Source of the DNA: an uncultured Spirochaetaceae bacterium
GTDB taxonomy: Bacteria; Spirochaetota; Spirochaetia; Sphaerochaetales; Sphaerochaetaceae
Reading direction: 5' to 3'
Length of the DNA: 64,000 nt
Assembly (NCBI GenBank): GCA_944390725.1
Contig: CALXQU010000001.1
Coordinates: 1-64,000 of the forward strand
Shown here: positions 37,816 through 43,745 of the stretch, piece by piece
Numbering within the stretch: position 1 is the first letter of the stretch
Layout of the letters: each line of letters begins with the position of its first letter
Made by a program: the position numbers and the translations under genes
Notes under the pieces: model-generated
What the model was told of the DNA's origin: nothing
Database searches by the model: none
Seen by the model: only the letters and a program-made list of their open reading frames with translations

Positions 37816-40800
37816 ATGAAAAAGACTCTGGCAGTTCTCGCGACGATCCTCTCCATCACGGCGGCTTTCGCCGCTCCGCTTTCCATCAAGGAAGGCAACC
37901 TGGATGCCATCCAGCTCTACGCGCCTGACGGAAGCATCATAGATTCCGCCTCGGATATCACGGGAAGCGGATTCATAATCAGGGCCACGGAAGGAGGCCA
38001 GGTCTTCTCCTGCGATTTCGGTGATATCCACATCGGCGATGATGCCACCATAGCAGTCACGGGATTCACCGTCTCCGAGCCTTCCCTATACCTGCTCGAC
38101 GGCAGCATGAACATCGTACTCCCCGGCGATGAGATAACCTTATCAGTCTACACCCCTACGACGCTCTATATGGTCTCCGGCCCTGGAGAATACGCTTTCT
38201 CATCGACAGCGGAAGCGGAGTCATTCGCCAACTTCTCCGATACGGAGGCTTATGCATATGACTCGATCTTCGCAAAGGAGATAGGAATCCCGGCGATGTC
38301 CGGCCTTGACCTGATGAGCTCACCGGTCCCGGAAGCAGTCAGCGAGGAGGAATACCATGCCGCCTCCGTGCTCGGCACCATCTCCTACCCGGCGGAACCT
38401 GAGGAAGAAGCCATAGCTGCAGAGCCTGAGGAAGAAGCCATAGCTGCAGAGCCTGAGGAAGAAGCCATAGCTGCAGAGCCTGAGGAAGAAGCGCTTCCTG
38501 CGGATATCATCACGGAAGACGTGCTCGGCTATAAGCTCACCTTCGCGGTCGGGGATGGCATGACCACCCTTTCCTACCCATCTATCGTCACGGACCAGGA
38601 CGTCATAGGATTCATGGCATATGAGAGCGAGAAGCATCCTGCCGATGCGGCAGCGGTGAGCTACGCAATCGGCGACGGTGAGACAGTGCTTGAGTATCCT
38701 GAAGCAGTCTCAAGGGCTGCCGTCAGGTCATACATCCCCGTATTCGTCTCGGATATAGAGGAATACGTCGCCATAATCAGCCAGCCTGCAGTGCCATCTG
38801 CTCCAGCAATGGAGGCTCCTGAGCAGGTCCTTGAGCCGGAATCCGTCACGGAGGATATCATGGGCTATGAGCTCGTGTTCACCATCGGTGATGGCTGGAC
38901 CGTGCTTTCCTACCCGTCTATCGTCACGGACCAGGATGTCATAGGCTTCATGGCATATGAGAGCGCGAAGCATCCTGCCGATGCGGCAGCAGTGAGCTAC
39001 GCAATCGGCGACGGCGAGACAGTGCTTGAGTATCCTGAAGCAGTCTCCAGGGCCGATGTCAGGTCCTGCATACCTGTATTCGTCTCCGACATAGAGGAAT
39101 ACATCAGCCTCCCCGGCCAGCCTGCAGCGCCGGAGAAGCCTGCGATGACGGAGCCCGTGATCACCATCGGGCCTGATGTCGTCATCGAGCACCCCATGGG
39201 CTATGAGATCGTGTTCACCATCGAGGATGGCAGGACCACCCTTTCCTATCCGCCGGCAATCACGGCAGAGGATGTCGAGGCCTTCATGGCATACGAGAGC
39301 ACGAAGCATCCTGCCGACGCGGCAGCGGTAAGCTACTCAATCGGGGATAGTGAGACAGTGCTTGAGTATCCTGCTTCCGTCTCAAGGGACGAGGTCAGGG
39401 CATATATACCTGTCTTCACATCCGACATAGAGGAATACATCGGCATCATCAGCATCCCAGCAGCCACTGCAGGGGAAGAAGGGACTGCCGCCGTTCCCGT
39501 TTCCGGAGAGGATATCCCCTCCCCATATATAACGGGACAGGATATCAGGCCGGAGTTCCTCTTTGACCTCGGCCTCAAAGGCAGGGCCTACGCGGACAGC
39601 CTCGGCAACGTATCAGTCGCCCCTGCCCTCGAGCTTGCCTTCTACTATGGCGGATTCTCGGCGGCATTCAACATCGATCCGATCCATATCGCCTCGATAA
39701 CCAACCTGCTCGACAATCCCGATGCAGATGCATTCAGCTGGGTCGGCTGGGCATCCGACTTCATCGAGTACATAAGCTTCAGGACCATAGATGAGAGCGT
39801 GACGCTCAACCTTGACCGCTTCTCGTTCCTCAGCGGCGACAGCCTGGGGCTCTATGCCGGGCTCGACCACAACTGGGACGGTAAGGACAGGGCCCTCACG
39901 TTCGAGCACACCTTCAGCTCCACCTATTACTCGCACCGCATCTGGTTCGATGACCTCTCCTTCAGGAGGGATCCGGTATGGTCTACAGGCGGGCTCTCAT
40001 TCACATTCGGATTCTCCGAGAGCTATCCGGCCTCGATTACCCTGGAAGGCATGGCAAGGATCAACAGGGATGATATCGCGCTGACTGAATTCTATCCGGA
40101 GGCATCGCTCTTCATCCCGTTCTATGCCTCAGGGAATGACTACATCGGCCTTTCCGGAGGGGCTGCCACGCTATTCGTGGGTGACTGGAACGTGAATCCG
40201 TTCACGGAGAACGGCTATCTGGCCTTCGCCAGCATACCGATGAGCTTCAGCGACTTCTATGCGGAGGTCGGTGCCGGCTATTCTACCGGATACGTGCATT
40301 ACGGATCGGTCGGCAACGGCTCATATGACCCGGTCGATGGCCAGCTCCTGACATTCTACGGAGCCCTTGGCTACAACGGCAGCACTGTCGGCGCAGGAGT
40401 GAGGGGCTGGTTCGACCTTGACGTCAACACCCTCTCGTATATCAGCGAGAATTCCTTCATAGATGCATACGCCTACCTGAACATCTACAGCAGCTTCACG
40501 ATATTCGGCGGCGTGCAGTCATATCTCCTCGACGGCTCCTATGATCCTTCGTTCTACGCAGGGTTCAGCGCCGCGGCAGGTCCTCTCGATGCCTACTTCA
40601 AGGCCATGTATAAGGACCGCGCATGGTCCTTCTCGGTCGGAGGACGCATATCAGCGCTCGGAGTCGGCAGGGAAATCGCGGAAAGCTACGAGAAGCAGGC
40701 TGCCGGCGTAGATATCACCACAGGCTTCAGGTATGACTTCGATATGAACAGGACGGTCTTCGATGTCATGCCCGCGATCCGCATCGGGGACAGGAGCCTC

Positions 40801-41952
40801 GGAGTCACGCTGAGGGCGCCTCTGCAGCTGGCATTCAGCGACGACGGCTCGATACGCCTTGAGGGATTCAACGGCCATAGCTTCTACAACTTCGGCGCAT
40901 CCGAGATGAACGAGGAAAGGAAAGTATGGGCAATCTATTCCGATACCCTCTCGATCATCGACGGCCTCTACCTCGGCAAGGAAGGCGACCCGGTATACCT
41001 CGTGATGGACAGGGACTATGCAAGGACATCGACGCTCTTCTCCGGCTATGGCACGGCAGGCGACCTTGCCTTCGCAGCAGGATTCTCCTTCCCCGTCCTC
41101 GACATCTCGCTCTATGTGGATGACGCGGCAGCCCCGCACCTTGGCGAGTTCTTCCTCACCATCCTTCCCGGCGGGCTTGGGAGCGTCGCCATCAGGCTCG
41201 GCACCAGCATGAACTTCCTCTACCAGGACAAGACGGCATACTCGCTTGAGTTCCATCCTGAGCTGAGGATCGACGTCCCGATCGGCGACTTCTCGCTCTC
41301 GGCATTCGTGCTCGGCTCCGCTGGGCTCGATGTGGCGGATGGCACCTCATCCTCCTATCTGATCTACAGCAAGGAAGCAGGAGCCGCCTATGACTGGATG
41401 GCAGGCGCGGAAGCTGCGTACAGAGGAGGCTTCTTCGATATCATCCTCACGGCAGGCTACAGGACAGGCGCCCTGGGATACGGCATCTACGACGAGCTCG
41501 GCTCCTTCAGGAAGACCCCGTATGATATCACGAGCCCGTCAGCGGATGGCTGGTTCGGCAGGATCGAGATCGCTACGAGGATAGACTGGTTCTACCTCAG
41601 CGCATCCTACTACATCGACAACCTCGTGGAGTTCGGCAGGAATCCTGCGGAAGGCAGCTACTCCGACACATTCACGGCCAGGATAGGAGCGGATCTGGAG
41701 AATGCCGATATCTACGCACGCTTTGCCAGGAAGGGCTTCGCCAGGTCCCTGCTCATGGAAACGCCGTTCCTCAGCTACATGAGCTCCGATGACACGCTCT
41801 TCGCGCTTGGCGCCGAGCTCAGGTACGGCAATGTCAGCTTCCTTGCTGAGCTTGGCCTCAGCATCGTCGAGGAGGAAGGCGCATACATGAACATCCCGTC
41901 AGCAGCTGGCCAGCACTTCCAGCTCAAGCTCGGCACCAGGTTCGGATTCTGA
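37816..41952 (+). CDS. Large exported protein with three 112-residue repeats and a C-terminal predicted beta-barrel
   Basis: A 1378-residue protein with a signal peptide (MKKTLAVLATILSITAAFAA) and AAGGGG before the ATG. Residues about 25-190 form an unassigned N-terminal domain. Residues 193-225 are a spacer of nearly four copies of AEPEEEAIA. Residues 236-555 hold three copies of a 112-residue unit; each has two related halves with the core IGDGxTxLxYP (GYELVFTIGDGWTVLSYP and SYAIGDGETVLEYP). From about residue 580 to the end, alternating aromatic/glycine strands and a final aromatic residue (GTRFGF) suggest an outer-membrane barrel. I recognise no known family for the repeats. Its stop overlaps the mutL start (ATGA). 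Confidence 0.85.
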   Translation: MKKTLAVLATILSITAAFAAPLSIKEGNLDAIQLYAPDGSIIDSASDITGSGFIIRATEGGQVFSCDFGDIHIGDDATIAVTGFTVSEPSLYLLDGSMNIVLPGDEITLSVYTPTTLYMVSGPGEYAFSSTAEAESFANFSDTEAYAYDSIFAKEIGIPAMSGLDLMSSPVPEAVSEEEYHAASVLGTISYPAEPEEEAIAAEPEEEAIAAEPEEEAIAAEPEEEALPADIITEDVLGYKLTFAVGDGMTTLSYPSIVTDQDVIGFMAYESEKHPADAAAVSYAIGDGETVLEYPEAVSRAAVRSYIPVFVSDIEEYVAIISQPAVPSAPAMEAPEQVLEPESVTEDIMGYELVFTIGDGWTVLSYPSIVTDQDVIGFMAYESAKHPADAAAVSYAIGDGETVLEYPEAVSRADVRSCIPVFVSDIEEYISLPGQPAAPEKPAMTEPVITIGPDVVIEHPMGYEIVFTIEDGRTTLSYPPAITAEDVEAFMAYESTKHPADAAAVSYSIGDSETVLEYPASVSRDEVRAYIPVFTSDIEEYIGIISIPAATAGEEGTAAVPVSGEDIPSPYITGQDIRPEFLFDLGLKGRAYADSLGNVSVAPALELAFYYGGFSAAFNIDPIHIASITNLLDNPDADAFSWVGWASDFIEYISFRTIDESVTLNLDRFSFLSGDSLGLYAGLDHNWDGKDRALTFEHTFSSTYYSHRIWFDDLSFRRDPVWSTGGLSFTFGFSESYPASITLEGMARINRDDIALTEFYPEASLFIPFYASGNDYIGLSGGAATLFVGDWNVNPFTENGYLAFASIPMSFSDFYAEVGAGYSTGYVHYGSVGNGSYDPVDGQLLTFYGALGYNGSTVGAGVRGWFDLDVNTLSYISENSFIDAYAYLNIYSSFTIFGGVQSYLLDGSYDPSFYAGFSAAAGPLDAYFKAMYKDRAWSFSVGGRISALGVGREIAESYEKQAAGVDITTGFRYDFDMNRTVFDVMPAIRIGDRSLGVTLRAPLQLAFSDDGSIRLEGFNGHSFYNFGASEMNEERKVWAIYSDTLSIIDGLYLGKEGDPVYLVMDRDYARTSTLFSGYGTAGDLAFAAGFSFPVLDISLYVDDAAAPHLGEFFLTILPGGLGSVAIRLGTSMNFLYQDKTAYSLEFHPELRIDVPIGDFSLSAFVLGSAGLDVADGTSSSYLIYSKEAGAAYDWMAGAEAAYRGGFFDIILTAGYRTGALGYGIYDELGSFRKTPYDITSPSADGWFGRIEIATRIDWFYLSASYYIDNLVEFGRNPAEGSYSDTFTARIGADLENADIYARFARKGFARSLLMETPFLSYMSSDDTLFALGAELRYGNVSFLAELGLSIVEEEGAYMNIPSAAGQHFQLKLGTRFGF
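38392..38490 (+). repeat. 27-bp tandem repeat inside the large exported protein
   Basis: About 3.7 copies of a 27-base unit (starting GCAGAGCCTGAGGAAGAAGC), encoding A-E-P-E-E-E-A-I-A. The copies are nearly identical in DNA, suggesting recent slippage and possible length variation between strains. Confidence 0.9.
38521..39480 (+). repeat. Three 336-bp direct repeats encoding the IGDG domain
   Basis: Equivalent codons fall at 38521, 38857 and 39193, a period of exactly 336 bases (112 codons). Copies one and two are very similar in DNA, including long shared tracts around TATGGATAGAG-type and GAGACAGTGCTTGAGTATCC segments; copy three is more diverged. Confidence 0.9.
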
Positions 41953-43745
41953 TGGGCAGGATAGCCCTGCTTGATCCCCGGCTCGCATCACGCATCGCGG
42001 CCGGGGAAGTCATCGAGAGGCCCCAGTCGATAGCGAGGGAGCTTCTCGACAATGCGCTGGATGCCGGAGCTGATGAGATCAGGGTCGAGATTGAAGGCGG
42101 CGGGATAGACAGGATCTCGGTCATCGATAACGGCAAGGGCATCGCCCGCGAGGACCTTGCCATGCTCGGCAGCCGCCATGCCACCAGCAAGATAAGCCGG
42201 GAGGATGACCTGTACGCCATCACGACGCTCGGCTTCAGGGGCGAGGCCATCTACTCCATCTCGGCGGTATCCAGGTTCACGATGAAGACAAGGTCTTCGG
42301 AGACAGGCGAGTCATCGACGCTCTCCATCGACAACGGCAGGCGCGGCGAGATTGAGCCATATGGCCCGGACAGGGGCACGATCGCCACGGCGGAGGCGCT
42401 GTTCGCGGAAATACCGGCAAGGCGCTTCTTCCTCAAGCGCGCATCGACGGAAGGCAGCCTGATCAGGAATCTCGTCATCTCCAAGGCCCTCGCCTTCCCT
42501 GCCGTACGGTTCACGTTCGTATCCGATGGCGCGATAAGGCTGGACTGGCCGAAATGCGCTTCGCCCAAGGAACGCTGCATGCTGCTCTACAGGAGCCTCG
42601 GCATACCTGACGCGGATGTCGGGGAGATGGCAGCGGAAGGAGACGGCTTCAACGTCAGCATCATCGCTGGCAACTCATCAGTCAAGCGCTCCGACAGGAA
42701 GGAGATAAGGCTCTACGTCAACAGGCGTCCCGTCGATGACTATGCGCTGCAGCAGGCCGTGGTCTATGGTTACGGGGAGCTCCTTCCCGGAGGCTCATTC
42801 CCCTGCGCTGCCGTATTCATCGATGACAATCCGGAGATGGTCGACTTCAACATCCATCCGACGAAGAAGGAAGTCAAGCTGAGGAATGCCGCGGAGATAC
42901 ACCATGCCATCGTCACCGCGATAAAGTCAGGCGTCGAGCGCAGGATCCCGGAAGCGATGCCTGTGCAGAAGGAATTCTATCTGGAGGAGACGACGAGGAG
43001 GACCGAGCACCAGGCCAATCCCCTATCCTACCCACATCATGCCGCACCGAGGCATGGAGGCGGCAGCTTCGCAGCTGAGCGCATCGCCCCTGCATTCCCG
43101 AAGGATAGCGGCTGGCTGGAGAAGGCGAAGTCGCTGAAGGCCGAGCGGGATAGCTCCCTGGAGAGGAAGGATGCAGGAAGGCCCCATGTGGCGGAGCATA
43201 CGGAAGATGGATTCAGGTACATCGGCCAGGCATTCAGGCTGTTCCTCATCGTCGAGAAGGGGGATGAGCTGCTCTTCATAGACCAGCATGCGGCGCATGA
43301 GCGGATCATCTACAACGAGCTCATACAGCAGATCGACGTGCAGAAGCTGCTTGTCCCCATCCCGATCGAGACCGATGCAGCCTCATCCGCATTCCTTGAT
43401 GAGCACAGCCATGTCTATACCAAGCTGGGGATCATGCTGTCGAAGAAGGATGACGGCAGCTGGGAAATCACAGCGCTGCCTGCCGCCTGCCGCCCGATAG
43501 AGTCACAGGTAGTGGATTTCATCGAGGCATCCAGGCTGGATGACGAGGAGCTGGAAGCGCAGCTTTTCGCCATAATCGCCTGCAGGGCCGCGATAAAGGC
43601 CGGTGATGATATCGACAGATGGAGCGCTGAGGAGCTCGTGAGGAAGGCGCTCGCCCTGCCGGATCCGGCATGCCCCCATGGACGCACATTCATAACCGTG
43701 GTGAAGGAGAAGAACCTCAGGCTGCTCAGCGGACGTACTGAATGA
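41952..43745 (+). CDS. mutL: DNA mismatch repair protein MutL
   Basis: A 597-residue MutL. The GHKL ATPase motifs are clear: IAAGEVIERPQSIARELLDNALDAGA (E30, N34), DNGKG (59-63), GSRHATSK and GFRGEA (94-99). The C-terminal domain has DQHAAHE from residue 444, ACRAAIKAGDD and CPHGRT (574-579), as in MutLs with endonuclease activity. In DQHA-x2-E-x4-E the last glutamate position is N, with E one residue later. The start overlaps the previous gene's stop by one base. No mutS is in the window. Confidence 0.95.
   Translation: MGRIALLDPRLASRIAAGEVIERPQSIARELLDNALDAGADEIRVEIEGGGIDRISVIDNGKGIAREDLAMLGSRHATSKISREDDLYAITTLGFRGEAIYSISAVSRFTMKTRSSETGESSTLSIDNGRRGEIEPYGPDRGTIATAEALFAEIPARRFFLKRASTEGSLIRNLVISKALAFPAVRFTFVSDGAIRLDWPKCASPKERCMLLYRSLGIPDADVGEMAAEGDGFNVSIIAGNSSVKRSDRKEIRLYVNRRPVDDYALQQAVVYGYGELLPGGSFPCAAVFIDDNPEMVDFNIHPTKKEVKLRNAAEIHHAIVTAIKSGVERRIPEAMPVQKEFYLEETTRRTEHQANPLSYPHHAAPRHGGGSFAAERIAPAFPKDSGWLEKAKSLKAERDSSLERKDAGRPHVAEHTEDGFRYIGQAFRLFLIVEKGDELLFIDQHAAHERIIYNELIQQIDVQKLLVPIPIETDAASSAFLDEHSHVYTKLGIMLSKKDDGSWEITALPAACRPIESQVVDFIEASRLDDEELEAQLFAIIACRAAIKAGDDIDRWSAEELVRKALALPDPACPHGRTFITVVKEKNLRLLSGRTE

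Follow-up and report, generated by a model that had tools for sequence, protein, structure and literature searches.

The DNA analysed here is a stretch of 64,000 nucleotides, referred to as the window, from an uncultured gut spirochaete that resembles Candidatus Ornithospirochaeta. In the species collection, its named relatives are listed as uncultured Spirochaetaceae and as Candidatus Ornithospirochaeta stercoravium and stercoripullorum. One open reading frame of the window (37816–41952, forward strand) encodes a protein of 1378 amino acids which, according to computation, is exported to the outer membrane. Its N-terminus (MKKTLAVLATILSITAAFA, then AP) reads by eye as a Sec signal peptide. 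The repeated units, or beads, are acidic beta3-alpha-beta2-alpha domains carried on linkers rich in proline, glutamate and alanine, and they lie between a FecR-fold domain and the barrels (Table 1). The first-pass annotation had reported the signal peptide, the AEPEEEAIA copies and an exact 336-nt repeat, all of which were recovered by the open frame, TRF and a repeat search. It had also described repeats followed by a barrel sequence; this order stands, but the FecR-fold domain had been overlooked, and the barrel sequence of about 800 residues is really made of two modules (approximately residues 576–955 and 956–1378).

Table 1. Features of the gene, with window coordinates, and orthologues with a frame switch
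Feature	Residues	Position	Strand	Basis
CDS: signal peptide, FecR-fold domain, acidic linker, three units, barrel A, barrel B	1378 aa	37816..41952	+	
Signal peptide (...AFA before the cut, AP after)	1–19	37816..37872	+	read by eye from sequence
FecR-fold domain	20–166	37873..38313	+	VIA on orthologue model; domain profile match across orthologues
Acidic linker	167–227	38314..38496	+	disordered in orthologue model
27-nt tandem array inside linker, 3.5 copies (AEPEEEAIA), 100% matches		38398..38492	+	
Unit 1	228–322	38497..38781	+	repeat finding, unit profile
Unit 2 (sequence modelled by AlphaFold)	340–434	38833..39117	+	
Unit 3	452–546	39169..39453	+	unit profile
Barrel module A	576–955	39541..40680	+	profile A; orthologue model region matches 16–18-strand porins
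Barrel module B (end ...GTRFGF)	956–1378	40681..41949	+	profile B; present without A in several orthologues
A9 frame-switch orthologues: L131–L139, L141, L142, L160, L161, L163, L166, L167				

The repeat array comprises 2.7 copies of 336 nt (TRF score 1097), spaced by 336 and 336 nt; over 295 nt, the two later copies have 84% and 74% identity with the first one. Over the 95 codons of the units, the DNA identity is 82% (units 1 and 2), 74% (1 and 3) and 78% (2 and 3), and amino-acid changes outnumber silent changes in all three pairs. Judged from these values, units 1 and 2 diverged last, yet not very recently; a recent duplication had been proposed for them in the first-pass annotation.

A profile seeded from the three units of the window, and iterated over the loci that we collected, recovers each of them with E about 1e-28 to 1e-30, so that the repeat is not a chance resemblance. 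It detects 202 copies in 65 frames (some loci overlap), and finally 166 distinct units. The consensus has 82 positions, GYtLtati.dG.a.l.YP..vTe.DVeaFFAyEneKYG...dGV.Ysf..dG.a.ltYPE.is.Edv.A.ld.Lv.DLiaYv, of which G1, Y2, G11, P18, F29, Y46, P59, D77 and Y81 are at least 90% conserved. In both halves dGxaxlxYP is followed by the start of an acidic helix, which bears out the earlier observation that each repeat consists of two similar halves. The mean net charge of the units is −10.5. Units of the same protein are 74–99% identical in most proteins (61% in a ten-unit lipoprotein), and the identity across lineages is mostly 30–42%. Since units are mostly more alike within than between proteins, these sequences point to units that multiplied within their own gene by recurrent duplication or conversion, and of which some were exchanged with other genes.

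Regarding the family to which the unit belongs, the searches returned nothing: the whole protein has no Pfam or NCBIfam match at cut-off, 22 units taken from the window and related loci have no Pfam match at cut-off and a best PHROGs E of 0.027, the profile of these 22 units has no match in the PDB sequences (best E 0.91), and the unit has no match in plasmid records, nor in a viral structure library at E <= 1e-3. A match to the PKD domain (E 0.019, below cut-off) was put down to chance. The first-pass annotation knew of no described family for this repeat, which the sequence libraries and the PDB profile search support, and neither a match to a known repeat family nor a C-terminal part other than a barrel came up.

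The AlphaFold model of the unit, computed from the 22 units with unit 2 of the window as the modelled sequence, has a predicted local distance difference test (pLDDT) score of 92.4 and the order beta3-alpha-beta2-alpha. Foldseek finds nothing at E <= 1e-3; its best matches, which are weak (best E 6.3e-3), include type III secretion chaperones and Arp2/3 subunits. The order of elements is shared with the chaperone fold (SigE, SycN/YscB, SpcU; also the Arp2/3 subunits), apart from the leading helix, which the unit lacks, and the resemblance amounts to a template modelling (TM) score of about 0.4 (TMq 0.42) with 14% identity; the chaperones are cytoplasmic dimers, whereas the units are exported tandem repeats. 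The best matches in VIA are N-terminal domains of the allophanate hydrolase subunit 1/KipI type, namely the KipI-like domain of urea carboxylase (3va7, Z 8.8 over 90 aligned residues, root-mean-square deviation (rmsd) 3.0) and 2phc (Z 7.1), scores that lie in or close to the range often seen for unrelated models; the identity is 9–14%, and those proteins are cytoplasmic enzymes. On this model, the unit is a compact two-layer sandwich of a known general type with no demonstrable relative.

The unit is not specific to the protein of the window, but is a module of many exported proteins of one bacterial family. The profile finds it in 70 of the 139 genomes of the order and in 9 of its 22 genera, all of the same family, including 34 of the 48 genomes of the window's genus. 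In a phylum-wide sample it occurs in 17 of 393 genomes, again all within this family, and in none of about 163 other genera of the phylum. A search with a single sequence had restricted the unit to the window's genus; the profile search overturned this result.

At least seven exported architectures carry the unit. Lipoproteins with a terminal 5'-nucleotidase have between 1 and 10 units and match PF02872 and PF00149 (E 1e-28 and 1.1e-12 for L067, 7.9e-32 and 3.8e-12 for L069); their neighbour is usually a small lipoprotein that bears one or two units. Other carriers have a fibronectin-like start and a small barrel, or an N-terminal membrane segment. Small tandem envelope domains joined by flexible linkers and found on many carrier proteins are familiar from LysM, SLH and PASTA. 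The unit shares these traits, but has no Pfam match to any of the three and is confined to one bacterial family, so to speak a home-grown building block of its cell envelope, or so it looks.

Some carriers deserve a mention of their own. Conserved proteins of 160–170 residues (L119, L120, L121 and L122) combine an N-terminal membrane segment with a single divergent unit, and are possibly an old form of the domain. An FKBP-type prolyl isomerase (L115:1947-3524, reverse strand) ends with one unit. In the genome of the window, a second carrier gene, that of a 5'-nucleotidase lipoprotein, is cut by the ends of contigs C23 (end of L066, G000:C23:19611) and C27 (L067, G000:C27:9743). These ends overlap exactly by 47 bases and probably belong to one gene broken by its own repeats; the join is likely rather than certain, since the overlap lies in the repeats.

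The domain that precedes the units was recognised on an orthologue with no units (L096, 1126 residues), modelled over its whole chain by AlphaFold (mean pLDDT 73, with a disordered linker). Residues 53–190 of the model match the C-terminal domain of PupR (6ovk_R) and the anti-sigma factor BDI_1681 (4m0h_B) with a VIA Z of 14.4 and an rmsd of 2.6–3.0 over 130–133 residues, and the profile of this region matches the protein of the window at residues 22–165. The fold is therefore that of the C-terminal signalling domain of FecR/PupR-type anti-sigma regulators; here, on the contrary, it is fused to repeats and a barrel and there is no cytoplasmic anti-sigma part. Pfam FecR has no match in 18 orthologues (a distant relative reaches E 0.057, under the cut-off). 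No sigma factor gene adjoins the gene, whose neighbours encode an HD protein, a PP-loop ATPase and MutL, and none was searched for elsewhere.

The outer-membrane barrel that had been predicted for the C-terminal part is supported by both structural searches on the same model. Foldseek gives 165 matches at E <= 1e-3, and those listed are mostly outer-membrane barrels. In VIA, residues 319–688 match OccK, AlgE and porins of 16 to 18 strands with Z about 15; the VIA matches listed are dominated by this one domain, so that the remaining half of the barrel is barely covered by structure. The barrel has no Pfam match. LptD is first in the Foldseek list (E 5e-10), yet with a TM of 0.12, an rmsd of 26 and no Pfam match it was rejected as the identity of the barrel.

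The two halves, A and B, which may form two barrels, look like separate modules because several orthologues have a FecR domain with B only (L052, L055, L058 and L059; L057 is cut at its start) and a protein of genus g40 (L168) has a FecR domain with A only. The region of module A matches whole porins by itself. The two modules are perhaps distant relatives, judging from an hhalign probability of 81% over 112 columns. GfcD is described as a single chain that combines two barrels with a periplasmic domain (PMC11494523, which cites Solan et al. 2021 on multi-barrel proteins). The likeness lies in two tandem modules, predicted in our case, with a further exported part; the spirochaete barrel differs in having no Pfam match and other N-terminal domains.

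A tree of 41 barrels resolves with strong support into three groups, namely genus g26, a clade devoid of units within the window's genus, and a clade of in-frame fusions which includes the protein of the window. The fused clade has 0 to 5 units with no clear pattern, and the FecR frame of g26 carries 1 to 3. The suggestion that the copy number may vary was thus well founded, with 0 to 5 units in orthologues across species. In the closest orthologue (L086:2-600, forward strand, genome G018, at a contig start), a TTVPE tandem repeat forms the linker before the barrel.

The FecR and barrel sequences are in different frames in g26 and in every member but one of the unit-less clade; the barrel frame is at the −1 position and starts with no visible signal peptide. 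The overlap of the two frames falls on exactly nine consecutive A in 16 orthologues (11 + 5, from two genera, Table 1), while a seventeenth gene (L140) keeps the A9 but in frame. Runs of at least nine A or T number 17 in 20 loci (112,110 bases), and all 17 are at the FecR–barrel junction; the 64-kb window has none. Three genes of g26 (L162, L164 and L165) switch frame at a site with no A9.

The two frames would be read as one if the transcript gained an A or if the ribosome slipped by −1. That they meet at an exactly conserved A9 makes programmed slippage during transcription, or −1 frameshifting, likely. We slightly prefer the former, since no consistent stem follows the A9 (mean z −0.87). 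Phase variation is argued against by the constant length of the run in diverged genes. Slippage at an A9 is documented for tssM3 of Yersinia pseudotuberculosis, with 15–25% frameshifting (PMC4256274). There the run joins two frames of one envelope protein, as it would in the spirochaetes, whose A9, read from the sequence, lies where a FecR-fold protein meets a barrel in genes orthologous to that of the window. It is a directly testable candidate for programmed recoding in an outer-membrane protein, and the slipping and fused orthologues offer a natural comparison.

The organisms that use the unit appear, from their gene content, to have an unusual cell wall. None of the 48 genomes of the window's genus has the transpeptidase domain PF00905, which is present in 24 of the 24 other genera of the class that were sampled; FtsW/RodA has only a weakly matching homologue in the window's genus. 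The OmpA-like domain is missing from 138 of the 139 genomes of the order and present in 20 of the 24 other genera. Many of these genomes are incomplete, yet gaps in the assemblies are an unlikely cause of such regular absences. A simple rule according to which the loss of the transpeptidase explains the units was rejected, since g26 has both units and transpeptidase.

Regarding the function of the beads, we favour the idea that they are acidic, tandemly expandable docking modules which face the periplasm, rather than a passive spacer; we give it a probability of about 0.4, the function being deduced and any ligand putative. The stretch before the barrel would be periplasmic, considering its position N-terminal to the barrel, the FecR-fold domain beside it and the carriers with an N-terminal membrane segment, the periplasm also being the compartment that the other bead carriers would share. 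Of the two sites named in the first-pass annotation for a putative binding module, surface or periplasm, these features favour the latter. There, the beads would dock onto a shared envelope partner, the tandem copies adding avidity as LysM or SLH modules do, and in this protein they would keep the FecR-fold domain, together with partner proteins, close to the opening of the barrel on the periplasmic side. A shared binding partner would best explain why one lineage placed this domain, in differing numbers of copies, on many unrelated envelope proteins, and the likeness of units within a protein is what is expected of modules that expand by duplication. The most likely partner would be the bead-bearing 5'-nucleotidase lipoprotein. 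This link is supported by a single chain of 1779 residues (L169:415-5751, forward strand, genome G145), in which a FecR domain, a degenerate 5'-nucleotidase domain and both barrel modules are joined; the nucleotidase domain is 45% identical (E 3e-72) to that of the bead-bearing lipoprotein in the window's genome.

Several observations weigh against docking. Many orthologues have no unit and 14 of the 48 members of the genus have none in their genome, so that the barrel protein can do without units. The enzyme domain of G145 has GPAD in place of the GNHD motif, and the fusion may be a relic. The units of a lipoprotein in G032 and those of a barrel protein in G025 are 77% alike, so that identity is not always protein-specific. 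Last, the length and composition of the linkers vary freely, which is compatible with a mere spacer. Units and linkers would then be a ruler that sets the distance from FecR domain to barrel and binds no ligand, and orthologues with linkers rich in Pro/Glu or TTVPE in place of units fit such a role, as does the freedom of the copy number to vary. We nevertheless hold the spacer to be doubtful: a spacer requires folding alone, whereas G, Y, YP, F, E, D and Y are near-invariant across the 166 distinct units and their different carriers, and units are also stacked on carriers that have no barrel.

The three other explanations that we considered differ in where the units would act or on what. If the N-terminal part were exported through or around the barrel, the units could bind molecules of the host, the diet or neighbouring cells, with selection on their number; spirochaete lipoproteins can be surface exposed, and both the number of units and the linker sequence diverge rapidly from one species to the next. 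This is unlikely, however, considering that protein parts N-terminal to a barrel usually remain periplasmic, as do FecR-type domains, and that units also occur on proteins with an N-terminal membrane segment. About equally unlikely is a tether which replaces OmpA-type anchors by binding cell-wall glycan or bridging both membranes. The absence of the OmpA-like domain from the order and of the transpeptidase from the genus would suit it, and so would the occurrence of the units across lipoproteins, barrels and proteins anchored by their N-terminus; but the units are strongly acidic, about half of the order has neither OmpA nor units, and g26 has units yet keeps the transpeptidase. As for a chaperone-like module that escorts unfolded barrel or secreted chains, it is suggested by the type III chaperones among the best Foldseek matches and by the unit fused to the FKBP prolyl isomerase. 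It seems very improbable, since these matches do not reach E <= 1e-3, the unit lacks the N-terminal helix of the chaperone fold, and a tandem array covalently fused to mature enzymes does not resemble type III chaperones.

A wider and rather speculative extension, to which we attach little probability, is that the beads are the shared connectors of an envelope scaffold peculiar to this family. In a family that lacks OmpA-type anchors, with a genus that lacks transpeptidases, like beads would link lipoproteins, barrels and proteins anchored in the inner membrane. The ancestral FecR–bead part would have been made both free and barrel-bound, at a set ratio and through slippage at the A9, before the frames were fused for good in the lineage of the window.

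Although there are precedents for repeat modules, for FecR domains and for multi-barrel proteins, this domain family and this architecture look new: neither the unit family, nor its combination with FecR and barrels, nor the A9 junction was found described in the open-licence papers searched. They add a domain family with a confidently predicted fold, spread over much of the envelope of one family, in organisms with unusual walls.

Last, we note the surroundings of the gene. An HD-domain gene and a PP-loop ATPase gene lie upstream, and mutL lies downstream with a one-base overlap. The stop codon of the gene overlaps the start codon of mutL (TGATG, window 41949–41953), an arrangement which suggests translational coupling between the two.

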